This document shows, piece after piece, positions 32,025 through 45,407 of a stretch of DNA of 64,000 nucleotides. The notes under the pieces are model-generated. The model worked only from the letters and a program-made list of their open reading frames with translations, searched no databases and was not told the origin of the DNA. This stretch comes from Pseudomonas benzenivorans. Its GTDB lineage: Bacteria > Pseudomonadota > Gammaproteobacteria > Pseudomonadales > Pseudomonadaceae. The translations under genes and the position numbers were made by a program. The number at the start of each line of letters is the position of its first letter. Within the stretch, counting starts at the first letter, position 1. Location of the stretch: positions 158,808 through 222,807 of the forward strand of contig NZ_FNCT01000005.1 in the NCBI RefSeq assembly GCF_900100495.1. Direction: 5' to 3'.

Positions 32025-32969
32025 TCAGGCTTGCGAGAGCGGCCGCCGGGCGCTTCTGATCGCGGCCTGGACGCCGTGTTGCTTGAACATCGGGTCTTCC
32101 TTGAACTTGTCGATGATGAATTCCTTGAACACCCGGACCCAGCGGTTGTCGCGCAGGTCCGGGTGGGTGAGCACCCAGATGTCGCTGTGCCGCGCGGCGG
32201 CCAGGCTGAACAGGCGCCGCAGTTCGGGCTTGGCCTGGTCGTCGGGCAGCAGGGCGATGCCGAGGCCGGCAACGGCCAGGGCCGACATGCCGATCAGGTC
32301 GCTGCAGCGGGCGACTATCCGCTGCGGCGGGATATGCCGCTCCGCCCAGTCGAAGGCCGGCAAGCGCAGCAGGTCGTGATGCGCGGAGATGATCGCGTGC
32401 TCCTTCAGGGCATCCTCATCGGCCGGGGTGCCATGCTCGGCCAGGTAGGCCTCGCAGGCATAGGCGCCCCAGGCCAGGGAGAACAGCTTGGTGCCGATCA
32501 GGTGTTCCGGCGGCGCCGGGGTGGCGCGGATGGCCAGGTCCGCCTCGCGGCGCGACAGATTGAGATCGTCGTTGCCGACCAGCAGGTTGACGTGGATATC
32601 CGGGTAGAGGCGGTGGAACTCGACCAGATAGCCCGGCAGATAACGGTAGGCCAGGTTATGCGGTGCGGTCACGTTGATCACGCCGCGCAGGTGGTCGTTG
32701 CGGTTATCCAGCAGCCGCTGCAGCTCGTCGATGCGGTCGGAAATCCGCTCCACATACGCCAGCACCTCGTCGCCGGCGCCGGTGAGCCGATAGCCCTCGG
32801 GATGACGGGCGAACAGCTTGATGCCGGCGGCCGCTTCCAGGCTGTTGATGCGCCGGAACACGGTGGAGTGGGTGACCTTGAGCCTATTGGCCGCCTTGGC
32901 CAAGGAGCCGCAACGCGCCACCGTCAGAAAGAATTTGAGGTCACTCCAGTTCAGCTCGGTCAGATCCAT
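32025..32969 (-). CDS. LysR-family transcriptional regulator
   Basis: A 314-residue LysR protein of the DNA-binding GcvA/CrgA-like subgroup. The HTH GSLAKAANRLKVTHSTVFRRI is at residues ~20-41, followed by an effector domain with LRGVINVTAPHNLAYRYLP. It is divergent from the glutathione S-transferase gene across a 146-bp gap and is its likely regulator. Confidence 0.88.
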   Translation of the reverse strand: MDLTELNWSDLKFFLTVARCGSLAKAANRLKVTHSTVFRRINSLEAAAGIKLFARHPEGYRLTGAGDEVLAYVERISDRIDELQRLLDNRNDHLRGVINVTAPHNLAYRYLPGYLVEFHRLYPDIHVNLLVGNDDLNLSRREADLAIRATPAPPEHLIGTKLFSLAWGAYACEAYLAEHGTPADEDALKEHAIISAHHDLLRLPAFDWAERHIPPQRIVARCSDLIGMSALAVAGLGIALLPDDQAKPELRRLFSLAAARHSDIWVLTHPDLRDNRWVRVFKEFIIDKFKEDPMFKQHGVQAAIRSARRPLSQA

Positions 32970-33115
32970 CGGCTTGGCTCACTCTCCATTGGCGGAAACG
33001 CGGTTTGCAGTTTTGTCCGTTCTCGCGGCTCAAGGGCAAGGCATACCCTGATCGCGACTGCGCAGAGGCTACCGCCAGTAGCCGCGCAACGCGACAGCCA
33101 ATGGAGAAGTTCGCC

Positions 33116-33808
33116 ATGCATTACGCCAAGTTAGTTCTCGTCAGCCACACCCTCTGCCCCTATGTACAACGCTCGGTCATCACCCTGAACGAGAAGCAGA
33201 TTGCCCATGAGCGCATCTATGTCGACCTGGGCAACAAACCCGATTGGTTCCTGGCCATGTCGCCGCTGGGCAAGGTGCCGCTGCTGCAGGTCGACGACGG
33301 CCCGGTGCTCTTCGAGTCGGCGGTGATCTGCGAATTCCTCGATGAGATCACGCCGGATTCGCTGCATCCGGTCGATCCGCTGGTCAAGGCCCGGCACCGG
33401 GCCTGGATCGAGTTCGGCTCGCAACTGCTCAACGATATCGCCAAGCTCTACAACGCACCGCTGGATGCCGCCTTCCTCGACAGCCTGAAGGTGATCCGCG
33501 ACAAGATGCGCCGCCTGGAGAACGAAGTGCGCGGGCCGTTCTTCGCCGGGGCAAGGTTCAGCATCGTCGATGCGACCTACGGCCCGGTGTTCCGTTACTT
33601 CGACACCCTGGACCGCTACCTGCCACTGGACGTGTTCGAGCACTGCCCGCACCTGCAACGCTGGCGTGCCCAGCTGGCCGAGCGGCCCTCGGTCAAGGCG
33701 GCGGTCAGCCCGGACTACCCGCAGTTGCTGAAGGATTTCCTGCTGCACCGCGGCAGCATCCTCAGCCGGCGGATGGCCTTGACCGATATGACGGCGGCGA
33801 CGGCCTGA
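33116..33808 (+). CDS. Glutathione S-transferase family protein
   Basis: A 230-residue protein with an N-terminal thioredoxin-fold GST domain (SHTLCPYVQRSVITLNEK, with Cys and Pro at the glutathione site; cis-Pro in GKVPLLQVDDGPVLFES) and a helical C-terminal domain. The CPY motif resembles omega/SspA-type GSTs with a catalytic Cys. The start at 33116 (MHYAKLVLV) is chosen because GGAGAA lies just upstream; an ATG five codons earlier has no ribosome site. It may be functionally linked to the DoxX/methyltransferase pair facing it. Confidence 0.85.
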   Translation: MHYAKLVLVSHTLCPYVQRSVITLNEKQIAHERIYVDLGNKPDWFLAMSPLGKVPLLQVDDGPVLFESAVICEFLDEITPDSLHPVDPLVKARHRAWIEFGSQLLNDIAKLYNAPLDAAFLDSLKVIRDKMRRLENEVRGPFFAGARFSIVDATYGPVFRYFDTLDRYLPLDVFEHCPHLQRWRAQLAERPSVKAAVSPDYPQLLKDFLLHRGSILSRRMALTDMTAATA

Positions 33809-33949: not shown

Positions 33950-34993
33950 CTAATTGCGCAACGCCGCTTCCTCCATGCACTGGTCGAAGCGCCCGACCAC
34001 CTCGCCCGCGCGCTCCACCTGCCCCTGCCAGCGATAGACCTGGCGGAAGCTCGCCCCTTCGCGCGGATAGCGACGCGAGAAGCGCAGCATCAAGCGATCG
34101 CCGCGCCGCACTTCGATGGGCTGCTCGATCGGCAAGTAGGCATGCTTCCAGCTATCCGAGGTTTCGCCGTTGGCGATGTCGTCGCCGGAGATATCCAGCG
34201 TGACCGAGCCGGTCAGCTCGGCGATGAAATAGGCCTTGAAGCCGGTCAGCACCTCCTCGCGCTCGAGGCTGTAGCAGAGCTCCAGTTCGTAGCTGGCCGG
34301 TTGGTCCCAGGCCCCCTCGTAGCGCTGCACCAGCTGCGGAGCACTCAAGTAGAGACTGCGCGGCAGGATGCAGTCGTAGTACAGGTTGAACGGCGAATCG
34401 ATGCCCTTGTGCCGGTACAACTCGGCAATCCGATAATGCGGCGTCAGGCTGGCGATATGGCCGGCGCGCAGGTTCCGGTGGGCGGTGGGTGCCGCTACCG
34501 GCACCAAGTAGGCACTGGTCGAGCGCGGCAGGGCAATACCGCCTGGCTTCAGGAAGCGCTGGATGGCGTCCTCCAGGATGGGCTGGAAGTCCTCATTGTC
34601 GGCCATGTTGCCGATGATCTCGGAGATCAGCACATCCACCCGCTGCGGCAGCTCCACCTGGTAGGAGAGGCGGTTGATCGGCTCGAAGCGCTCGGCGAAA
34701 CCCGCGCGCTGCATGCGGACCACCGCCTGCTGCAGAATCGGCGCGCTGAGGTCGATGCCGTACACCCGCGCGGCCCCGGCCTGCAGCGCCCAGAGGCTGA
34801 GAATGCCGGTGCCGGTGCCCAGGTCCAGCACCAGGTCGCCGGGTTTGACGGCTTCGAAAATCGCCTGGCGATAGGCCGTCATCCGCAGCCGGTCGTTGAG
34901 CATCAGGTCATGGAAAGCCTCGTCCCAATCCAGCAGGGATTCGGAGAAAGGCGGCCACACTTGTTCGGCGCTATAAGTGGTCATGCTCGACAT
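33950..34993 (-). CDS. PRMT-like SAM-dependent methyltransferase
   Basis: A 347-residue class-I methyltransferase with the build of a protein arginine methyltransferase. SAM motif I is VLDLGTGTGILSLWAL (residues 55-70), with the acidic post-I residue Asp81. The PRMT double-E loop is present in exact spacing: SEIIGNMADNE at 124-134 (Glu125 and Glu134). The C-terminal half is a beta-barrel-like region with SDSWKHAYLPIEQPIEV in place of the PRMT THW loop. Bacterial PRMT-like proteins are uncommon and their targets unknown. The start is uncertain: 34993 or 34984. It follows the DoxX gene but is separated from it by a terminator. Confidence 0.78.
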   Translation of the reverse strand: MSSMTTYSAEQVWPPFSESLLDWDEAFHDLMLNDRLRMTAYRQAIFEAVKPGDLVLDLGTGTGILSLWALQAGAARVYGIDLSAPILQQAVVRMQRAGFAERFEPINRLSYQVELPQRVDVLISEIIGNMADNEDFQPILEDAIQRFLKPGGIALPRSTSAYLVPVAAPTAHRNLRAGHIASLTPHYRIAELYRHKGIDSPFNLYYDCILPRSLYLSAPQLVQRYEGAWDQPASYELELCYSLEREEVLTGFKAYFIAELTGSVTLDISGDDIANGETSDSWKHAYLPIEQPIEVRRGDRLMLRFSRRYPREGASFRQVYRWQGQVERAGEVVGRFDQCMEEAALRN

Positions 34994-34999
34994 ACACCT

Positions 35000-35032
35000 A
35001 AAAAAATCCCGGGAGCCAGGGGCCGCCGGGAT
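35000..35032 (-). terminator. Rho-independent terminator of the DoxX gene
   Basis: On the minus strand an ATCCCGG/CCGGGAT stem with a GC-rich loop is followed by seven T residues, 19 bp after the doxX stop. It overlaps the leader of the downstream methyltransferase gene, so that gene needs read-through or its own promoter. Confidence 0.85.
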
Positions 35033-35050
35033 CAAGGGGGGATGAAAGAG

Positions 35051-35497
35051 TCAGCGGGCGTTGGCGGAGTAAGCGCCCGCACTGTGCTTCTGCCCCGGCA
35101 CGACGACGTAGGCGCCGGCGCCGATCAGGGCCACCACGGCGGACATCGCCGCGAGGAACAGCGGGTATTCCCAGCCACCGTTGGTGGAGGTGAACAGCCA
35201 GCCATTGCCCCAGTGCGCCCAGGTGGCGCCGAGCAGGATGGGCAGCAGGGCCAGGGCCACGATGCGGGTCTGATACCCCAGAATCAGCAGCGCGCCGCCG
35301 ACGACTTCCATGCCGAACACCAGATAGGCGAGCCAACCCGGCAGGCCGATGGAGGCGAAGAACTGGGCAGTGCCGGCCAGGGTGAACACCATCAGTTTCA
35401 GATAGAGGCTGTGGGCGATCAGCACTACGCCCAGGGATACGCGCAGCAGCAGCGCGCCATAGTCGTGGTAGCTGTCGGTGTTGGTCTTCGGGTCCAT
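35051..35497 (-). CDS. DoxX family membrane protein
   Basis: A 148-residue, four-TM DoxX protein: an LLLRVSLGVVLIAHSLYLKL first helix and FGMEVVGGALLILGYQTR in the second half. Family members are linked to thiol/redox homeostasis and often neighbour GSTs, as here. The ATG at 35497 has a strong AAGGAG. Confidence 0.87.
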   Translation of the reverse strand: MDPKTNTDSYHDYGALLLRVSLGVVLIAHSLYLKLMVFTLAGTAQFFASIGLPGWLAYLVFGMEVVGGALLILGYQTRIVALALLPILLGATWAHWGNGWLFTSTNGGWEYPLFLAAMSAVVALIGAGAYVVVPGQKHSAGAYSANAR

Positions 35498-35831: not shown

Positions 35832-36043
35832 AGCCTGTCGGCAACCTTGGAGGCCAGGCCCGCTCCCGAAAACGCCCCCGGCGATTTTCCTAGCTTCCCC
35901 GTCCCTGGGGTCGCCGGCGGGCTTGCGGATTTCCCAGATCCTTGTGGGAAGCGCGCCCCGCGGCGAATGCAGCCCGCAGGGCTGCCCGGTCGTAGTGTCG
36001 CAGTGCAGGACGAAGGCTTCGCCCCGAGGTCGGGCCTCCTACA
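35832..36043 (-). repeat. Long inverted repeat, copy A (right-hand partner at 42.1 kb)
   Basis: This ~212-bp sequence is the reverse complement, with small indels, of 42062-42295. The best block is 36 identical bases (35951-35986 against 42138-42173). It lies 35 bp beyond the stop of the Rieske gene. Together the two copies bracket a 6-kb segment holding the multicopper oxidase and the arginine-derived biosynthetic operon. Confidence 0.85.
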
Positions 36044-36078: not shown

Positions 36079-36321
36079 TTAATCGATCGCCGCGCACTTC
36101 GCCACCGCCAGGCGCCCGCAGGGTGGGCCGCTCAGCTGCTCTCCGGTTTCCAGGCTGAACACCGAGTGATGCAGCGGGCAGGCGATGGTCCGGCGTTGCC
36201 GATTGATCTCGCCATGGTCCAGTCGCCCGGCCCGATGCGGGCAGTACTGCGGCACCCGGTATTCCTCACCGTCGATGCTCAGGTGGAACACCCCTTGTTC
36301 CCGCTGCTCGTCCAGGCTCAT
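36079..36321 (-). CDS. Rieske-type [2Fe-2S] ferredoxin of the roh-like operon
   Basis: An 80-residue single-domain Rieske protein. Cluster ligands are Cys27-x-His29 (YCPHRAG) and Cys48-x2-His51 (ACPLHHSVFSLETG). It has no membrane segment, so it is a soluble electron carrier. Its ATG overlaps the stop of the diiron oxidase gene by 4 bp, which points to a direct partnership: it is the obvious electron donor for the diiron centre. It is the last gene of the operon. A Rieske gene may also occur in the Streptomyces azomycin cluster, but I am not certain of its name there. Confidence 0.88.
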   Translation of the reverse strand: MSLDEQREQGVFHLSIDGEEYRVPQYCPHRAGRLDHGEINRQRRTIACPLHHSVFSLETGEQLSGPPCGRLAVAKCAAID

Positions 36322-37238
36322 CGGCAGGCCGCTCCGTGGTTGTCAGCGGGTAGCTGCCCTGCTGGTCGCAGATGGCCGCCGGGCGTTCCTGTTGCGCGCG
36401 GGTTCGCGGCCTCGCCTTGCCTGGAGAGCCGCCGGGCCTTGCCGACCGCGCCCTCGAAGGCCGCTGCGGTGATGGCGCTGGCCAGCCTGGCGCCGAGCCA
36501 GGCCTTGCGCGGACAGAGGCTGTCCGTGGCCTGCATCGCCCGCAGCAGACGCTGGCCCTCGATGGCATGGAAGGCGTCGATATGCTGATGCTCGCTGTAG
36601 TAGGCGTGGGCCTCGATGCCCAGGCGCCGGCAGGCCTGCACATAGCACTCGAAGAAGACCGGGATGGCCGTCTCCAGGTAGGTGATGGCGCCGGCGAAAT
36701 AGGACGGATCGTCCGCGCGCAGGGTCAGCCAGAAGAACAGATTGACGAAGGCGAAGCTCTCCGGCTCCAGGCGCTCGCTGTAGAAGGCCAGCTCGGTCGG
36801 CATCTCCAGCTCGCGCAACAGCTCGAGGTACAGGCTGGTATGGGCGCGCTTGAGATTACCGGAGCCGAACTCGTCGATCATGATGCGCAGCATGGGCATC
36901 TGCGCCTCCAGGGTCAGGCGCGGGAGGATGTAGTAGAAGACCTGCGCTTCGGTCAGGCCATCCACCGCGAACTCCTGCACCAGGATGCGGAACTCGTCCA
37001 GCGTCATGCGTTCGCCAACATAGCCGGCGCTCTCTGGCAGCTCGCGCTGTTCCTCCGCGATCAGCCGGGCGAGGCGTTGCTGCAGGCCGGCCAGGTCGCC
37101 GGGGCAATCGGCGGGCGGGATCTCGGCCAGCTGCCCGGCGATCCATTGCCGCTCGAACGCCAGCAGGGCGGGGTCGCCGCCCCCCGGCTCATGTAGCTGC
37201 GCGCGGTTGTAGAGATACAGCTGCTTTTGCTCGGGCAT
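36318..37238 (-). CDS. rohS: Heme-oxygenase-like diiron oxidase (RohS/SznF-type N-oxygenase candidate)
   Basis: A 306-residue all-helical HDO-fold protein. Metal ligands fall in family spacing: Glu123 and His133 (DEFGSGNLKRAH), Glu189 (TYLETAIP), and His217-x3-Asp221-x2-His224 (HQHIDAFH). Glu97 lies exactly 26 residues before Glu123, the spacing of the extra glutamate ligand (Glu189/Glu215) in the N-oxygenase SznF, and this favours N-oxygenation over C-C cleavage. In azomycin synthesis RohS turns 2-aminoimidazole into 2-nitroimidazole. The start at 37238 has GGGAGG upstream, 16 nt after the aldolase stop. The last ~40 residues are basic and poorly conserved-looking. Confidence 0.8.
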   Translation of the reverse strand: MPEQKQLYLYNRAQLHEPGGGDPALLAFERQWIAGQLAEIPPADCPGDLAGLQQRLARLIAEEQRELPESAGYVGERMTLDEFRILVQEFAVDGLTEAQVFYYILPRLTLEAQMPMLRIMIDEFGSGNLKRAHTSLYLELLRELEMPTELAFYSERLEPESFAFVNLFFWLTLRADDPSYFAGAITYLETAIPVFFECYVQACRRLGIEAHAYYSEHQHIDAFHAIEGQRLLRAMQATDSLCPRKAWLGARLASAITAAAFEGAVGKARRLSRQGEAANPRATGTPGGHLRPAGQLPADNHGAACR

Positions 37239-37254
37239 CTCCTGCGCCTCCCGC

Positions 37255-38043
37255 TCAGGCGGCCACGGTGCGATCGGAGCCGATCACGCCGCGCGCCTTG
37301 AGTGCTTGCTTGACGTAGCGATACCAGTCCTCGCTGAACAGCTGGTAGGCCTCGCTGAGACGCCGGATTTCCGCCTGCAGGGCCGGCGTCGCGACGTCCA
37401 TGGCGACCCGGCACAGCATCGGTTCCAGGTTGGCCAGGGCGACCACGTTGCCATCGGCCGGCATCCCGCCCGCCAGGCGATGCTCCCAACCGATGTAGTA
37501 GGCCAGGCCCCGGGCTTGCAGGGCGTCGATCTGCGCCGGGCTGAGCTCGTGCTCGGACGAGTCCTTGATGCCCACCACCCGTGGCAGTTCGGCGATCTGC
37601 AGGAGGGTTGCGAAGGCCGTCTCGTTGCCCGACAGCGCCGACTCGTTGTAGATGTAGATGGCCAGCTCGGTGCTGTCGTGCAGACGGCGGTAATGCTCGA
37701 GGATGGCCGCCTGGCCGACCTCGGCGCCGAACGGCGAGGTCAGCATGATGGCGCTGGCGCCCAGCTGCTCGGCCTGCCTGGCGTAGTCCAGCACCTCGGC
37801 GGTGGTCGGCCGCTCGATGCCGACGATCACGCTGCGCTCGCCGGCCTCCGCCAGGGTGAAGCGCAGCATGTCCTGCCATTGCTCGGCGCTCAGGCGCCAG
37901 CCCTCCCCCGAGGTCAGGCAGGGGATGTAGCCGCTGGCGGTATGCCGCGAATGGGCGAGCAGCTGGGCCACGCTCTGCCGGCAAACCGCGCCGTGCTGGT
38001 CAAGCGGTGTGATCAAGGGAACAAAGGTGCCGTGTCTCGACAT
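37255..38043 (-). CDS. rohQ: DapA-family aldolase (RohQ-like)
   Basis: A 262-residue class-I aldolase of the dihydrodipicolinate synthase / N-acetylneuraminate lyase family, shorter than DapA itself (~292). Schiff-base Lys160 is in VVGIKDSSEHE, the catalytic Tyr132 in YIYNESAL, and Thr44-Ser45 in PCLTSGEG replace the usual TT pair. In the azomycin pathway RohQ splits 4-hydroxy-2-oxoarginine into pyruvate and guanidinoacetaldehyde, and the neighbours here fit that role better than lysine synthesis. The start at 38043 has AAGGA upstream and lies 44 nt inside the preceding gene. Confidence 0.8.
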   Translation of the reverse strand: MSRHGTFVPLITPLDQHGAVCRQSVAQLLAHSRHTASGYIPCLTSGEGWRLSAEQWQDMLRFTLAEAGERSVIVGIERPTTAEVLDYARQAEQLGASAIMLTSPFGAEVGQAAILEHYRRLHDSTELAIYIYNESALSGNETAFATLLQIAELPRVVGIKDSSEHELSPAQIDALQARGLAYYIGWEHRLAGGMPADGNVVALANLEPMLCRVAMDVATPALQAEIRRLSEAYQLFSEDWYRYVKQALKARGVIGSDRTVAA

Positions 38044-38551
38044 GCTGCCAATCCTTATCGGTGAGAATGAATGCCCGCGAAGCCTGGTAGAGGTCCTGCA
38101 GTTCGCCGGGGAACGCCCCCTGCGCGGCCAGGCTGTCGAAGTCGCCCAGGCACGAGGCCAGGCAGGGCAACGCCAGCAGCGCCGGGTCGTGGGTGAACAG
38201 CGTGCCGGCGGCGCTCAGCAGCACCTGGGCCGCCAGCAACGCCTGCTCCGGACGCAGTTCCTGGAGCTGGCGATGGTTGCGCGCCAGCTCCAGTTCGGCG
38301 AACGCATAGCCTTCGCGGAGGATCTGCATGTCGCTGTGCAGCAGGTCCATGAACGGGTAATAGACGTCCTGCACCCGCCGCGGCTGGCGCCAGATGATCG
38401 CGTCGCAGATGCCGACCTGTTCGAAGTTCATCCGCGCGCGCCGCTCGAAATGGCTGCGAAAGAACGCCAGCGAGCGCCGCCGGATCAAGTCGTTCGCGTG
38501 GTGCATGCCGAGGAACACGCTGGCATCGATGAAGGGCACGACCTCAGCCAT
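38000..38551 (-). CDS. DUF6190-like protein of the roh-like operon
   Basis: A 183-residue soluble protein beginning MAEVVPFIDASVFLGMHHAN, with a PIN-like acidic start, then a mostly helical body including the conserved-looking CDAIIWRQ and VYYPFMDLLHSD. I place it in a DUF6190-type family with modest confidence. It overlaps the upstream hydroxylase gene by 8 nt and the downstream aldolase by 44 nt, so it is firmly part of the pathway. By elimination it could be the ring-closing (cyclodehydratase) step to 2-aminoimidazole, but nothing in the sequence proves it. GGAG lies 7 nt before the ATG. Confidence 0.72.
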   Translation of the reverse strand: MAEVVPFIDASVFLGMHHANDLIRRRSLAFFRSHFERRARMNFEQVGICDAIIWRQPRRVQDVYYPFMDLLHSDMQILREGYAFAELELARNHRQLQELRPEQALLAAQVLLSAAGTLFTHDPALLALPCLASCLGDFDSLAAQGAFPGELQDLYQASRAFILTDKDWQHVETRHLCSLDHTA

Positions 38552-39746
38552 GGAAGTTCTCCAGGGCCGCGCGCATGGCCTGCATGGCCTCGGCGAACAT
38601 CTCCGGGTTGCGCGCCAGGGCGATGCGGATGTAGTGCTGGCCTTGTTGCGGGTGGTGCCAGTAGAAGTATTTGCCGGGCAGCACGTAGATGTTGCGTTGC
38701 AGCAGGTAGTCCTGCAGCGCATCGGCAGTCAGGGCCGGGTCCTTGATCTGGAACCAGGCCACGCTGGTTTCCACCATGGGCTCGCAGTAGCCGAGCAACG
38801 GCACATCCAGGTACTGCCGGGCGCAGCGGCGATTGGTTTCCAGCACCTGGCGGACCGAGGCGAAATCGTCGGCGCCGCTGTCTTCCACGTAGCGGGTGAT
38901 CAGGTTGAGGATGAACGGCGAGACATTCAGCAGCACGCTGGTGACGATGTTGTAGATGTCCTCGTTGAGGTCGCGGCTGGCCATGATGGTGGCGCACTTG
39001 GCATCCTGCAGCGGCCAGGTCTTGCCGGTGTCCTCCATGGCGATGTAGCGCACCCCGGCGTCTTCCAGGATGGCATAGACATCGCAGCGCGGCTGGCCCG
39101 AGGTGAGGATGAAGGCGGCGAAGCAGAGGTCCAGGACCAGCAGCTTGTCGTAGTCGACGCAGAAGCGCACGACCTCCAGGAAGGCTTCCGGGCCCGGGGA
39201 GAACAGGCTGAAACCGGTAGGGTTGTTGGGGTCCACCAGCACCAGCGCATCCAGGTCGATGGCGTGCTCCACCAGGTTGCCGTAGATCGCCGAGTGGTCG
39301 CGAAACAGCAACTCGCCGAGCGGCGACATGGGCACCTGCATGTGTTTCATCAGGTCGTGCAGGTTGTCGAAGCAGGGCTCGATCAGCCCGACCCGCATGT
39401 TGTGTTTCTTCAGGTAGGTGGCGGTGATGTGCATGCCGATCGAGGCCGCGTACACCAGATAGATCTCGTCCTTGCGCTTCAGGGCCCGATGCTGGCCGTG
39501 GAAGCGGTAGAAGGTTTCGATGAACTCCTGCTCGCTCTGGTGCTGGGTCTGGTTTTCGGCGCGGTACCAGAGGCTCGGCAGGCTCTCGACGATGCGCCGC
39601 TGGCTGCGGCTCTGGCTCTGGTGGGTGTGGGCATCGGCCAGGTTGAAGCGGGTCTTCAGCGCGGCGATTTCATGCTGGGTGATGTCTTCCTTGCAGAGCA
39701 TCGCCAAGTCTTTGGCTTGGGGGGCAACGGCGAGATCCATGGACAT
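38544..39746 (-). CDS. rohP: PLP- and O2-dependent L-arginine hydroxylase/oxidase (RohP/MppP-like)
   Basis: A 400-residue fold-type-I aminotransferase-like enzyme. NPTG is at 175-178, Asp206 (LVLDLCFAAF) would pair with the PLP nitrogen, and Lys242 (EDTGKTWPLQ) is the Schiff-base lysine. The N-terminus carries Thr23, Glu26, Asp38 and His40 (FNLADAHTHQ). Their spacing matches the Thr12/Glu15/His29 set that, as I recall, makes MppP and RohP hydroxylases rather than transaminases. The expected product from L-arginine is 4-hydroxy-2-oxoarginine. A strong AAGGAGG lies 5 nt before the ATG. It is the first gene of the five-gene operon, 79 bp after a multicopper oxidase gene on the same strand. Confidence 0.82.
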   Translation of the reverse strand: MSMDLAVAPQAKDLAMLCKEDITQHEIAALKTRFNLADAHTHQSQSRSQRRIVESLPSLWYRAENQTQHQSEQEFIETFYRFHGQHRALKRKDEIYLVYAASIGMHITATYLKKHNMRVGLIEPCFDNLHDLMKHMQVPMSPLGELLFRDHSAIYGNLVEHAIDLDALVLVDPNNPTGFSLFSPGPEAFLEVVRFCVDYDKLLVLDLCFAAFILTSGQPRCDVYAILEDAGVRYIAMEDTGKTWPLQDAKCATIMASRDLNEDIYNIVTSVLLNVSPFILNLITRYVEDSGADDFASVRQVLETNRRCARQYLDVPLLGYCEPMVETSVAWFQIKDPALTADALQDYLLQRNIYVLPGKYFYWHHPQQGQHYIRIALARNPEMFAEAMQAMRAALENFHG

Positions 39747-39825: not shown

Positions 39826-41562
39826 TCAGGGCTGGATGACGACCTTCTCCATCATTCCGTGATCCTCGTGATCGAGGATGTGGCAATGGCTGACGAAGGC
39901 CCCGGCGAAGTCGCTGTAGCGCATGCGCGCCTCGATGGTGCTGGCGGCTTCGTCGTTCGGGTCGATCTGCGGCGTGTTGATCGTGTCCTTCCAGTAGCGA
40001 TCGACGATGTTGCCGCTGGCGTCGCGCTCGATCACCTCGAACGGATTGACGTGGATATGGAAGGGGTGGTGCGAGAACACCGAGGAGATGTACCAGGTCT
40101 GCGCCTCACCCAGCTTGAGCAGGCGCGGCTGCTCGGGGTCGTAGGGCTTGCCGTTGATCAGGCCGACCCAGGGATCGCGACTGATGTCGATATCGAAGCT
40201 CAGGTACTGCGGTTGCGCCGCCAGCTCGCTATCGGCGATCGGTTGCGGCCGGTTGAGCCGGGCCAGTTGGGCGTTGCGCGGATAGCCCATCAGCCGCGGC
40301 GCGCCGCCGACCACCACCCGCGCCAGAATGTTCTGGGCCTGCTCATCGAGCAGCAGCGGCGCGTTGCCGCGCTGCCGGTCGCAGTAGCTGGCCGGCAGCG
40401 TGGCGGCAGCCGTCGGGCTCTCGGTGTCGAGCAGGTAATACAGCCCAGGCCGAACCGCCCGCACGGCGACGTCGCTGCGGTAGCCGGGGGCGAGAAACAC
40501 CCCGCGGTCGGCGGCCAGGCGCTTGCTGGCGAAGGGGATGCCATCGGCCGCCAACTGGATCAGCGGCACCGCCGGCCCGTCGGCGCAGGCCGGCACCAGG
40601 CGCAGGTTGAGCAGTTTGCGCACGCCGGCATGCACCATCCGCCAGAGTTCGACCTCGCCCGGTTGCAGGCGGATTTCCGGCATCACCTTGCCGTTGAGCG
40701 CGATGTGCCAGCCGCGCGCGGCGGCCTGATCGGTCCAGGCGGTGGGGGCGTAGGTGTCGTTGTTTTCGATGCGCCCGTCCCGATCGAAGGCGATCTCCTG
40801 CAGCAGCACGATGCGGCGGTCCGCGTTGCGCAGGCGCGGCGTGCGGTCGTAGTCGCCCTCGACGATCAGGGCGCCGGCCATGCCGCTGCCCACCTGTACC
40901 GAACTGGCGCCGTGCAGATGGGCGTGATACCAGAAGGTCCCGGCAGGATGATCGGCGGGAATCTTGATCTGGTAATCGAACGCCTCGCCATGCGCGAGAC
41001 GCACGAAGACGTTGTCGCTGTTGCCGTTCGGATCCACATGCAGCCCGTGGGTGTGCAGGTTGGTGAGGTTGAAGTGGTGCGGGAAGTTGTGATTGCACTC
41101 GCCCTGCTCGTCGCAGTGGGGCACATGGGCATCCGGCGGCAGATCGTTGACCAGACGGACCCTCAGCGTATCGCCGGGACGGGCCACCAGGGTCGGCCCG
41201 ACCAGTGCGCCGTTGTAGCTGCGCAGATAGAGTTGTTCGGTGACGGACTGGCCGTCGCGCAAGGTGGTAAAGCTGTGCTGGGCATAGGCGGCGGTCAGCT
41301 CGACCCGCAGTTCGCGGGTCTGCGGGTTCGAGCGGATGACCGGCGCCTGGGGCAGCGGCTCGTGCAGGTAGTTGAGCGGCGCGGCAGGAGCGAAGTTGGG
41401 CGCCGCGCCGGTGCGCAGATCGCTCATCGTCAGACTGTCCGCCGCGTTGTCCGAAATCGGCGTGCCGACTTGGCCAGCGGGAGCGTGCAGCGACAGCAAT
41501 AGCGCCAACCAGCCGGTGATCCAGAGTGCGCGCGACGAAATACTGGGGTGATGAGACACCAC
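39826..41562 (-). CDS. Secreted multicopper oxidase (Sec-type)
   Basis: A 578-residue laccase-like enzyme. An N-terminal hydrophobic signal (ALWITGWLALLLSLHAPAG) directs Sec export. The copper motifs are complete: HTHG and FWYHAHLHG in the first cupredoxin domain, HPFHIHVNPF and HCHILDHEDHGMM in the last, with the type-1 axial Met. Substrates of such enzymes range from phenols to metals and cannot be called. The start is GTG; AGGAGG sits 4 nt before 41562 or 7 nt before the next GTG at 41559. It is inside the segment bracketed by the long inverted repeats and upstream of rohP on the same strand. Confidence 0.9.
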   Translation of the reverse strand: MVSHHPSISSRALWITGWLALLLSLHAPAGQVGTPISDNAADSLTMSDLRTGAAPNFAPAAPLNYLHEPLPQAPVIRSNPQTRELRVELTAAYAQHSFTTLRDGQSVTEQLYLRSYNGALVGPTLVARPGDTLRVRLVNDLPPDAHVPHCDEQGECNHNFPHHFNLTNLHTHGLHVDPNGNSDNVFVRLAHGEAFDYQIKIPADHPAGTFWYHAHLHGASSVQVGSGMAGALIVEGDYDRTPRLRNADRRIVLLQEIAFDRDGRIENNDTYAPTAWTDQAAARGWHIALNGKVMPEIRLQPGEVELWRMVHAGVRKLLNLRLVPACADGPAVPLIQLAADGIPFASKRLAADRGVFLAPGYRSDVAVRAVRPGLYYLLDTESPTAAATLPASYCDRQRGNAPLLLDEQAQNILARVVVGGAPRLMGYPRNAQLARLNRPQPIADSELAAQPQYLSFDIDISRDPWVGLINGKPYDPEQPRLLKLGEAQTWYISSVFSHHPFHIHVNPFEVIERDASGNIVDRYWKDTINTPQIDPNDEAASTIEARMRYSDFAGAFVSHCHILDHEDHGMMEKVVIQP

Positions 41563-42010: not shown

Positions 42011-42295
42011 CTAGTGCGCTGTACGGTTAGTTGGTTGACTCGAATTCGCCGGCTTGAGCCTTATCTGTGGGAGGGTCCGGGCGGCGTTCCGCGACCTCGG
42101 GGCGAAGCCTTTGTCCTGCATAGTGACGCAGCAACCTGGCAGCCCTGCGGGCTGCATTCGCCGCGGGGCGCGCCTCCCACATGGATACGGGAAATGCCGC
42201 AAGCCCGCCGGCAACCCCATGGACGGGGGAGGTAGGAAGAACGCCGGGAGCGTTTTCGCGAGCGGGCGCTGCCCGCCCACAAGGTTGCAGGCAGT
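42011..42295 (+). repeat. Long inverted repeat, copy B, with terminal motif
   Basis: Positions 42062-42295 mirror copy A at 35832-36043. The left end starts CTAGTGCGCTGTACGGTTA (42011-42029), which is 18/19 identical to the inverted right end of the element at 46.5 kb. Positions 42051-42113 match 46376-46438 at 62 of 63 bases. It is therefore a member of a dispersed non-coding element family. Confidence 0.85.
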
Positions 42296-43340: not shown

Positions 43341-45407
43341 TCAATCCGGTTGCCCCGGCTGCAGCGGGCCGATGCGGTAGGGGCGCATCATCTCGTTGTC
43401 CTCGTGTTCGACGATGTGGCAGTGCCAGACGAACTGGCCCGGCGTGTTGAACTGTGCCCGCAGGCGGGTGACCTGGCCGGGATAGGCGATGACGGTGTCC
43501 TTGAAGCCGGTCTCCCAGGGCTCGGCCGGGGTCGGCAGCGAGCCGGGGGCGAGCTGGACCGTCTCGGCCTGCTCGTCGACGAGGATGTCCTGCCGATCGA
43601 TGACTTCGAACGCGACCTCGTGGATGTGCATCGGGTGGGCGTCGCCGGTGGCGTTGTACAGCTCCCAGACCTCGGTCGCGCCGAGGGCCGGGTTCTCGCT
43701 GACCGGCTCCATCCACAGGCGCTTGTTCCAGGCGGCCGGGGCCTCGGCCGGATCGCCCGCCAGGGTGCCGAGCAACGCCTCGGCCGGCGCGTCGTCGAAG
43801 AACGCCGACATCTCCTCGAGCAGCACCAGTGGGCGGGTGACGCTTGCCTCTGGCAGCGGCGTGATCGCCGGCAACTGCAGGAACTGCGGTGGCGTGCTCG
43901 GATCGGCCGCCAGCGCCGGCACCACGCGCAACTGCATGACCTGGCCGGTGCTGTCCGGGTCGGCGATATCGAAGTCGCCATCCGGCTCGCCGCCGCTGAA
44001 TGGCTCGTCCGGGCCGACATTGGCCAGCACATAGTTGCCCGGCGGCACCTGGCTGAAATCGACGATCAGGTCGGCCCGCTCGGCCAGGCCCATCAGCAGG
44101 CGGTTGCCGTGGTCGGCCGTGAGGTTCACCGGCGCGGCGAGGAAGCCGCCCTCGTTGCCGATCTGCCAGACCTCCACCCCGGGGATGGCGTTGAAGTCGA
44201 GGATCAGGAAGCGCGACTGGCAGCCGTTGAGCAGGCGCAGGCGGTAGCGCACCTGCTCGACGCTGTGGAAGGGCCAGGTATTGCCGTTGACCATCAGCAT
44301 GTTGCCGAAGAACTCGGGGTTCCACAGCGGCGAGAGGTCGCTATCCGGAATGAAGGGCCCGGCGATCTCGTCGAAGAAGGCGCGGGAATCCGGGTAGAAC
44401 AGTGAGCCGTCGGCGTTGAAGGAACGATCCTGGATCGCCAGGGGGATCTCGTAGTAGGTCTTGTTCGGCGGGAACTTGTCGTTCGCCTTGGGCGCCGGTC
44501 CCGGCAGCAGCGCCAGCCCGCCGGAGCGCGTGTCGAGCAGCGTGGCGTCGCCGGCCGGGCCGCCACGCACGAGGTAGAACCCGGCCGGCCCGGCATACAC
44601 GTTCAGCCGGGTCATGCCCAGGGTGTGGTCGTGGTACCAGAGGGTCGAGGCGCGGTTGAGGTTCGGGTACTGGAAGGTGGCGAAGCCCGGCCCCCAGGTC
44701 TCGCCGAACTTCGCCGCCGCCTTGCCGGCGAAGAATTCGTACCAGCTGCCTTCGCGGGCGAACTCCGCCGGGATGTCGCTGGCGTCGGGCAGGTACCAAG
44801 CCTCGGCGTAGCCGTCGCTCTCGTCGCCGACGCCAACCGCGCCGTGCACGTGGGTGACCATGGGCACCGGCCCGCTATAGGGCGCGGGCGTGCTGCTGAA
44901 GGTCGGCCGCTCGTCGCGCCCGTCGCTGCCGCCGGGCGGGTTGGCCCAGTGCAGGGTCGGGTCGACGGGCAGCAGGTGGGGCAGGAAGTTGCCGGCGTCG
45001 TCCTTGAGCTCATTGATCCACTTCACCCGCACCGGGGTGTTCCAAGTGGCCTCGATGGTCAGCGAAGGCGCGTTGTGCAGCAGCAGGCCGCGCCTGCTGC
45101 CGTTCGACACGGCGCCATAACCCCAGACGGTGGTGGCGGGCAGGCCCGCGGGGAGTATCTGCTGGCTGAGCTGCCTGAGGGCGATCTCGTAATAGTCGAC
45201 CCGCTTGCCGCCCAACTGGGTGAACCGCGCCGCCTTGGGCATCACCGGCGGAATCAGCAGAGGCGTCTGGAACTTGGGCACCAGGCCGGGATCGAGGGAA
45301 CCGCCGGGAATCTGCGCGATCGCCACCGGCACGCCGAAGCGGTTGATAGCGAACAGCGTGAGGACAGTGCCGCCGGTGTATTTCAGGAATGTACGCCGTG
45401 TGAACAT
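43341..45407 (-). CDS. Tat-exported multicopper oxidase (CotA / bilirubin-oxidase-like)
   Basis: A 688-residue three-cupredoxin-domain oxidase. The N-terminus MFTRRTFLKYTGGTVLTLFA is a twin-arginine signal, implying that it folds and loads copper in the cytoplasm. Copper motifs: HVHG, WYHDHTLGMTRLNVYAG, HPMHIHEVAFEV and HCHIVEHEDNEMMRPY with the axial Met. Length and motifs fit the CotA/bilirubin-oxidase branch. It is unrelated in sequence to the Sec-type oxidase 1.8 kb away apart from the copper motifs. Confidence 0.9.
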   Translation of the reverse strand: MFTRRTFLKYTGGTVLTLFAINRFGVPVAIAQIPGGSLDPGLVPKFQTPLLIPPVMPKAARFTQLGGKRVDYYEIALRQLSQQILPAGLPATTVWGYGAVSNGSRRGLLLHNAPSLTIEATWNTPVRVKWINELKDDAGNFLPHLLPVDPTLHWANPPGGSDGRDERPTFSSTPAPYSGPVPMVTHVHGAVGVGDESDGYAEAWYLPDASDIPAEFAREGSWYEFFAGKAAAKFGETWGPGFATFQYPNLNRASTLWYHDHTLGMTRLNVYAGPAGFYLVRGGPAGDATLLDTRSGGLALLPGPAPKANDKFPPNKTYYEIPLAIQDRSFNADGSLFYPDSRAFFDEIAGPFIPDSDLSPLWNPEFFGNMLMVNGNTWPFHSVEQVRYRLRLLNGCQSRFLILDFNAIPGVEVWQIGNEGGFLAAPVNLTADHGNRLLMGLAERADLIVDFSQVPPGNYVLANVGPDEPFSGGEPDGDFDIADPDSTGQVMQLRVVPALAADPSTPPQFLQLPAITPLPEASVTRPLVLLEEMSAFFDDAPAEALLGTLAGDPAEAPAAWNKRLWMEPVSENPALGATEVWELYNATGDAHPMHIHEVAFEVIDRQDILVDEQAETVQLAPGSLPTPAEPWETGFKDTVIAYPGQVTRLRAQFNTPGQFVWHCHIVEHEDNEMMRPYRIGPLQPGQPD

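Follow-up and report, generated by a model that had tools for sequence, protein, structure and literature searches.

Azomycin (2-nitroimidazole) production by Pseudomonas is reported in passages of PMC12713392 (J Bacteriol 2025), which describe liquid chromatography-mass spectrometry of Pseudomonas sp. DF41, carrying the five genes rohPQRST, and loss of the compound on deletion of the cluster; according to these passages, Pseudomonas roh operons are always adjoined by luxRI. The individual enzyme steps were shown for homologues in the literature, and a passage of PMC10724926 gives the order RohP, then RohR (a retro-aldolase), RohQ (a cyclodehydratase) and RohS. Here we analyse a stretch of 64,000 nucleotides from Pseudomonas benzenivorans (contig NZ_FNCT01000005.1, positions 158,808 to 222,807 of the forward strand; hereafter the window), in which a probable rohPQRST operon lies within an extended conserved locus spanning about 32.0-41.6 kb of the window, together with genes for a DoxX-family membrane protein, a methyltransferase of the protein arginine methyltransferase (PRMT) type, an omega-class glutathione S-transferase (GST) and a LysR-family regulator. 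We propose, with a probability of about 0.5, that the PRMT-type enzyme of this extended roh locus N-methylates a guanidine-bearing intermediate of the pathway.

A RohP scan of named genome contigs retrieved 50 loci: 10 that also contain the PRMT gene (PRMT-type), 13 from Pseudomonas without the extension, 23 actinobacterial, three cyanobacterial (RohP and RohR only) and one from Micromonospora (RohP only). With the window, L108 (from Pseudomonas genome G171) and L124 (from genome G671), this gives 13 PRMT-type loci, and the 12 besides the window come from Marinobacter, Halomonadaceae, Bordetella, Achromobacter, another Pseudomonas and others. DoxX, PRMT and GST accompany rohPQRST in all 13, across different families, and in the other 12 loci these proteins are, respectively, 47-74%, 53-64% and 53-65% identical to those of the window. 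The LysR protein shows at least 50% identity in eight of the 12 and only 25-28% in L038, L045 and L108, while the contig of L023 ends before this gene; the window and four other loci have a multicopper oxidase gene upstream of rohP, and the contig of L025 begins just before rohP. The genes occur in four orders: multicopper oxidase-PQRST-DoxX-PRMT-GST-LysR (where contig ends hide the multicopper oxidase in one locus and LysR in one), LysR-GST-PQRST-DoxX-PRMT, LysR-DoxX-GST-PQRST-PRMT and GST-LysR-DoxX-PRMT-PQRST. That the same genes stay together while their order changes speaks for a functional unit. We consider it nearly certain that PRMT, DoxX and GST are functionally tied to the pathway.

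The PRMT protein also served as an independent bait. Of 390 genomes from the order, six had a match at a threshold of E 1e-30, and a RohP search at a threshold of E 1e-100 picked out the identical six, the window's included; PRMT and roh genes are adjacent in every case. Four of the other five genomes appear to be those of L026, L030, L035 and L060 and so contribute no new loci; the search tests exclusivity. In the class (369 genomes), 10 genomes had a PRMT match at a threshold of E 1e-15, at ortholog level in the window's own genome only and with 28-39% identity in the other nine; RohP at E 1e-30 was likewise confined to the window's own genome, and no Roh gene was seen beside the distant PRMT homologues in L109-L114, the six of the nine that were fetched. 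If DoxX, PRMT, GST and LysR were ordinary chromosomal neighbours with no part in the pathway, one could understand why the multicopper oxidase occurs in only five of 13 loci and why LysR falls below 30% identity in three, the more so as genes for LysR, GST and DoxX proteins are all widespread in proteobacteria; this is, however, hard to believe of three genes kept in every locus, in different families and in four orders, and of an ortholog-level PRMT restricted to genomes with RohP.

The other roh loci lack this extension. The 13 remaining Pseudomonas loci, two of which (L028 and L037) are cut by contig ends, show no match to DoxX, PRMT or the multicopper oxidase, and four have a weak GST match (24-28% identity); all have a LuxR gene beside roh and seven have LuxI, and we refer to them as LuxR-type. 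At E 1e-5, none of the 23 actinobacterial loci, a few of them shortened by contig ends, matched DoxX, PRMT, GST or the multicopper oxidase. The three cyanobacterial loci (L063, L064 and L065, from metagenome-assembled genomes of Pseudanabaenaceae) contain RohP (52-54% identity) followed by a RohR-like aldolase (30-34%), with no match to RohQ, RohS or RohT, and perhaps form another product from 4-hydroxy-2-oxoarginine. In L069 (P. parafulva NBRC 16636) and L070 (Pseudomonas sp. KNUC1026) rohP is broken and rohQRST remain, suggesting pathway loss. Two further Pseudomonas loci, L115 and L116, encode RohP/MppP relatives of ~30% identity with no other roh gene within the 18 kb fetched, and plasmid records yielded distant RohP relatives only (nine records, 21-31% identity).

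The PRMT-type protein (METHYLTRANSFERASE) matches PRMT6 (E 1.4e-21) and PRMT5 (E 3e-15) in sequence, and its model (mean predicted local distance difference test score, pLDDT, of 85; values below 50 mainly at residues 1-17) matches PRMTs 1, 2, 4, 5, 6, 8 and 10 throughout the catalytic core (highest Z 29.9, with 304 residues aligned). It contains the features of the family, that is, the S-adenosylmethionine motif, the Rossmann and beta-barrel core, the double-E loop and a THW-type loop. In PRMTs these two loops bind the guanidino group; here, their residues E139/E148 and SWKH at 295-298 (the THW loop equivalent) do not vary among the 11 rows of an alignment that omits L108 and L124. The gene is listed with a TTG start codon, but translation may instead begin at an ATG, at residue 15 or 18. 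In the second Pseudomonas, RohT and PRMT occupy one continuous open frame (L108:7180-8507, minus strand), indicating a fusion or tight coupling, although an ATG in between could serve as a separate start. Among the matches listed from open-licence PubMed Central full text, none reported a methyltransferase in an azomycin cluster, and those on bacterial PRMTs offered nothing useful; the compound name 1-methyl-2-nitroimidazole occurs in one of ten papers listed for it.

The original prediction, made from the letters of the window, had read the core as an operon leading from arginine to 2-nitroimidazole, and all five genes lie where it placed them (36079-39746, minus strand), as intact and adjacent frames in the order P-Q-R-S-T. 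They had been described as overlapping, which is correct for P/Q, Q/R and S/T, while rohR and rohS are separated by 16 bases; the start of rohQ is an ATG inside a longer listed frame. Pfam assigns the products to Aminotran_1_2, DUF6190 (E 9.5e-57), DHDPS, Haem_oxygenas_2 and Rieske, in agreement with the predicted DUF6190-like protein, DapA-fold aldolase and Rieske ferredoxin. In phmmer searches of solved structures, RohP matches 6c3a (E 4e-134; a record titled 'uncharacterized protein' that we take to be RohP of Streptomyces cattleya), MppP (E 6e-55) and 7n79 (E 4e-41), and the next match, a C-S lyase/aminotransferase-fold protein, reaches only E 3e-5; the protein therefore resembles arginine hydroxylases, as proposed, far more than ordinary aminotransferases. 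Its best NCBIfam match is also MppP, below threshold (161.8 bits; cut-off 450). RohS matches 9pfx ('PbrRohS', E 1.7e-104) and then SznF (E 8e-6), the further matches up to E 10 being SznF-type proteins and two ancestral PyrR proteins; TenA, PqqC and UndA, the grouping that would have spoken against the assignment, do not appear among them. The AlphaFold model of RohQ (pLDDT 92) resembles the structures of 'cyclodehydratase RohQ' 9oq8/9c5w (42-43% identity, root mean square deviation 1.2-2.3), with far weaker next matches that include VapC-type toxins and PIN-domain proteins.

Residues expected to be catalytic were compared in rows from PRMT-type, LuxR-type and actinobacterial loci, setting aside the three cyanobacterial loci and that of Micromonospora. 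Invariant were RohP T23, E26, D38, H40 and the pyridoxal phosphate (PLP) lysine K242 in 47 of 47 rows (the broken L069 and L070 being dropped), RohR K160 and Y132 in 46 of 46 (L024, L028 and L042 dropped for lengths outside 240-300), RohS E97, E123, H133, E189, H217, D221 and H224 in 49 of 49, and the Rieske pairs C27/H29 and C48/H51 of RohT in 48 of 48 (with no row for L042, and with RohT of L062 and L108 cut to 100 residues). The Thr/Glu/Asp/His set of the hydroxylase, the Lys160/Tyr132 pair of the aldolase and the complete ligand set of the haem-oxygenase-like diiron oxidase (HDO) had all been pointed out beforehand. The RohS ligands were aligned to what we take to be the ligand list of SznF, with RohS E189 corresponding to SznF E281. 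At 306 residues, the window's RohS extends further at the C-terminal end (window 36318-36400) than any of the other 48 RohS proteins in the comparison, which have 269-301 residues. The passages found in PMC10849742 and PMC13108848 do not discuss RohS. Judged at the level of sequence, the five genes are very likely rohPQRST, the azomycin operon, the core is a member of an already known kind, and we assign it with high confidence to a pathway from arginine to a 2-nitroimidazole scaffold, with RohT as the probable electron donor of RohS. Two details of the original prediction need amendment: it ordered the steps RohP-RohQ-RohR-RohS, with RohQ ahead of RohR, contrary to the relevant part of PMC10724926, and it credited the cluster to Streptomyces cattleya, while a passage of PMC12713392 attributes the cluster of five genes to S. 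eurocidicus. It was right about the core and stopped at the operon edges, thus missing the DoxX, PRMT, GST and LysR partners, which may mean an end product other than plain azomycin.

From homology, RohP would convert L-arginine, with O2 and PLP, into 4-hydroxy-2-oxoarginine, which RohR would cleave to guanidinoacetaldehyde and RohQ would cyclise to 2-aminoimidazole, and RohS, with electrons from RohT, would turn the amino into a nitro group. The PRMT-type enzyme would N-methylate a guanidine-bearing substrate, either arginine, guanidinoacetaldehyde or the cyclic guanidine 2-aminoimidazole. The omega-class GST and DoxX are plausible protective or redox partners, and might handle a reactive product or redox stress. 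Methylation is supported by the linkage in 13 of 13 loci in four orders, by the co-occurrence in the same six genomes, by the shared frame in L108, by the fold and motifs of the PRMT and by the precedent of SznE/StzE, an arginine-guanidino methyltransferase that acts beside the HDO SznF, as stated in a passage of PMC11705231. We put methylation of a pathway molecule at even odds or slightly better; 1-methyl-2-nitroimidazole, the simplest outcome, is our tentative candidate for the end product.

Alternatively, the locus could make plain azomycin and use PRMT, GST and DoxX to protect the producer, the PRMT masking azomycin by N1-methylation or methylating a cellular target, and the GST conjugating or reducing reactive nitroimidazole species. 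GST and DoxX are common stress-type partners, the catalytic residues of the core are all kept, with few fixed differences from the LuxR-type and actinobacterial rows, and Pseudomonas sp. DF41 makes azomycin with rohPQRST (PMC12713392). Yet the 13 LuxR-type and 23 actinobacterial loci have neither DoxX nor PRMT, so that self-protection as such apparently does not require them, and the tight partnership of PRMT and RohP in six of 390 genomes and the frame shared with RohT in L108 suggest a biosynthetic role, so we consider protection of a plain azomycin producer possible but rather doubtful.

The core enzymes themselves differ little between types. Positions fixed, or nearly so, in different states in PRMT-type and LuxR-type loci are 133, 195, 223, 228 and 232 of RohP, 8, 119, 188 and 192 of RohS, and 33 of RohT. 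Beside E189 of RohS, all 13 PRMT-type rows carry Leu at position 188, and all 13 LuxR-type and all 23 actinobacterial rows carry Phe, a pattern compatible with a changed substrate and with room for a methyl group. Such residues could also serve a reaction in which the methyl group blocks full oxidation, N-omega-methylarginine giving 2-(methylamino)imidazole and RohS then yielding a product of the N-hydroxy or N-nitroso type in place of a nitroimidazole, much as SznF does with methylarginine. The SznE/SznF precedent (from the same passage of PMC11705231), the distant relationship of RohS to SznF and the position of the PRMT-type-specific residues 188 and 192, which flank E189, fit this chemistry; nevertheless, the window's RohS resembles azomycin-type RohS far more than SznF, and has 306 residues and no cupin domain by Pfam, against 471-491 residues in SznF chains, making this outcome improbable.

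Several points weigh against methylation of an intermediate. The Leu188 pattern may reflect ancestry, because the trees do not establish a single clade of PRMT-type loci, and with so few separating positions the core may well handle ordinary, unmethylated intermediates. The PRMT fold does not fix the substrate and the enzyme could act on a protein, even if the small-molecule context favours a non-protein substrate. The exclusivity at ortholog level was judged from six genomes, of which four appear identical to those of named loci, and the likeness to SznE is an analogy of genomic context only.

On trees of RohP and RohS the PRMT-type label requires two changes, one change sufficing in 16% (RohP) and 6% (RohS) of bootstrap trees. 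LuxR-type Pseudomonas form one clade (100/100 in both trees), L108 groups with Bordetella and Achromobacter (100/100 and 100/98), and RohP of the window pairs with Marinobacter (86/92), outside the LuxR-type clade; in the RohS tree, the window and its Marinobacter neighbours lie near the midpoint root and form no pair. From these placements, roh genes appear to have entered Pseudomonas on at least two occasions, and probably on three.

Control of the operon would also differ. No LuxI or LuxR match was found in the window or beside roh in the other PRMT-type loci, and a LuxI protein search at E 0.001 gave no match in the window's genome or in G171, the LuxR-type controls G212, G269 and G292 being positive. 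Two PRMT-type genomes contain LuxI-like matches off the roh contig, G786 (30% identity, E 1.4e-13) and G671 (E 5e-4); the absence of LuxI thus concerns the neighbourhood of roh and not every PRMT-type genome as a whole. The LysR protein might replace the LuxR-type control of other Pseudomonas operons. Among the LuxR-type loci, L036, L037, L039, L040, L069 and L070 have LuxR and no LuxI match (E 1e-5) in the part of the contig covered, in contrast to the luxRI pair reported as universal.

Table 1. Features of the extended roh locus in window coordinates, with predicted functions and the evidence for them.
Feature	Position	Strand	Product size	Predicted function or description	Basis
rohP	38544..39746	-	400 aa	O2- and PLP-dependent L-arginine hydroxylase/oxidase	phmmer match to 6c3a, invariant residues
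rohQ	38000..38548	-	182 aa	DUF6190, cyclodehydratase	Pfam; model against RohQ crystal structures
rohR	37255..38043	-	262 aa	DapA-fold retro-aldolase, Lys160/Tyr132	Pfam DHDPS
rohS	36318..37238	-	306 aa	Haem-oxygenase-like diiron N-oxygenase	phmmer match to 9pfx, invariant ligand residues
rohT	36079..36321	-	80 aa	Rieske ferredoxin	Pfam Rieske; CPH and CPLH motifs invariant
doxX	35051..35497	-		DoxX-family membrane protein	Pfam DoxX E 5e-18; in 13/13 PRMT-type loci
PRMT gene	33950..35035	-		PRMT-type methyltransferase	PRMT6 match, invariant motifs, model fold
GST gene	33101..33808	+		Omega-class GST, Cys19 (CPYVQR)	
LysR gene	32025..32969	-		LysR-family regulator, partner gene	At least 50% identity in 8/12 other PRMT-type loci
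Multicopper oxidase gene	39826..41562	-		Multicopper oxidase, upstream of rohP	In 5/13 PRMT-type loci, window included
175-bp repeat	35858..36032			Dispersed genomic repeat, between rohT and doxX	
175-bp repeat, inverted copy	42092..42267			Upstream of multicopper oxidase gene	

A second multicopper oxidase gene is located at window 43341-45407, 1.8 kb upstream of the first. The inverted pair of 175-bp repeats brackets the multicopper oxidase gene and rohPQRST, and was considered as the ends of a mobile unit; we rejected this possibility, and treat the repeat as dispersed, because it has 25 matching places in its own genome, the window's two included, and one copy sits inside the conserved locus.

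Nitroimidazoles are an important drug class, azomycin is their natural-product ancestor, and the variant described here predicts a methylated member of the class. If this is true, 1-methyl-2-nitroimidazole (expected m/z 128.0455, that is, azomycin plus CH2) would be missed by an azomycin assay at m/z 114.0298. The PRMT fold is familiar mainly from eukaryotic proteins, and its relatives methylate arginine in human cells; the window would place it in a bacterial, small-molecule setting. It is conceivable, though we hold this only tentatively, that these loci represent a second, LysR-controlled kind of azomycin pathway, horizontally spread among Pseudomonas, Marinobacter, Halomonadaceae, Alcaligenaceae and uncultured Gammaproteobacteria, with a small-molecule PRMT that would build an N-methylated nitroimidazole.

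Compared with known systems, the window has the same five genes in the same order as rohPQRST of Pseudomonas (strains DF41 and CMR5c and the P. syringae complex, from passages of PMC12713392). RohP is 63-68% identical in the 11 unbroken LuxR-type loci (DF41 and CMR5c themselves are outside this comparison) and the catalytic residues are common to both; however, those loci have LuxR beside roh and no DoxX or PRMT, whereas the window has DoxX and PRMT and no LuxR or LuxI. Actinobacterial roh loci, from Streptomyces and others, are more distant (RohP 53-57%, RohQ 35-43%, RohR 40-49%, RohS 38-42% and, in 22 of 23, RohT 35-53%) and are without DoxX, PRMT, GST and the multicopper oxidase. Known PRMTs share with the window protein the whole core fold, the double-E loop and the SWKH loop, although this protein is bacterial, 19-27% identical to the structural matches shown, and tied to a small-molecule gene cluster. 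Finally, the streptozotocin enzymes SznE and SznF likewise place an arginine-guanidino methyltransferase beside an HDO acting on an arginine nitrogen (a passage of PMC11705231), but in the window RohP, RohR and RohQ would assemble the scaffold, and the role of the HDO falls to RohS, which has no cupin domain. The locus may offer a second example, after SznE/SznF, of an HDO-type N-oxygenase paired with a guanidino methyltransferase.

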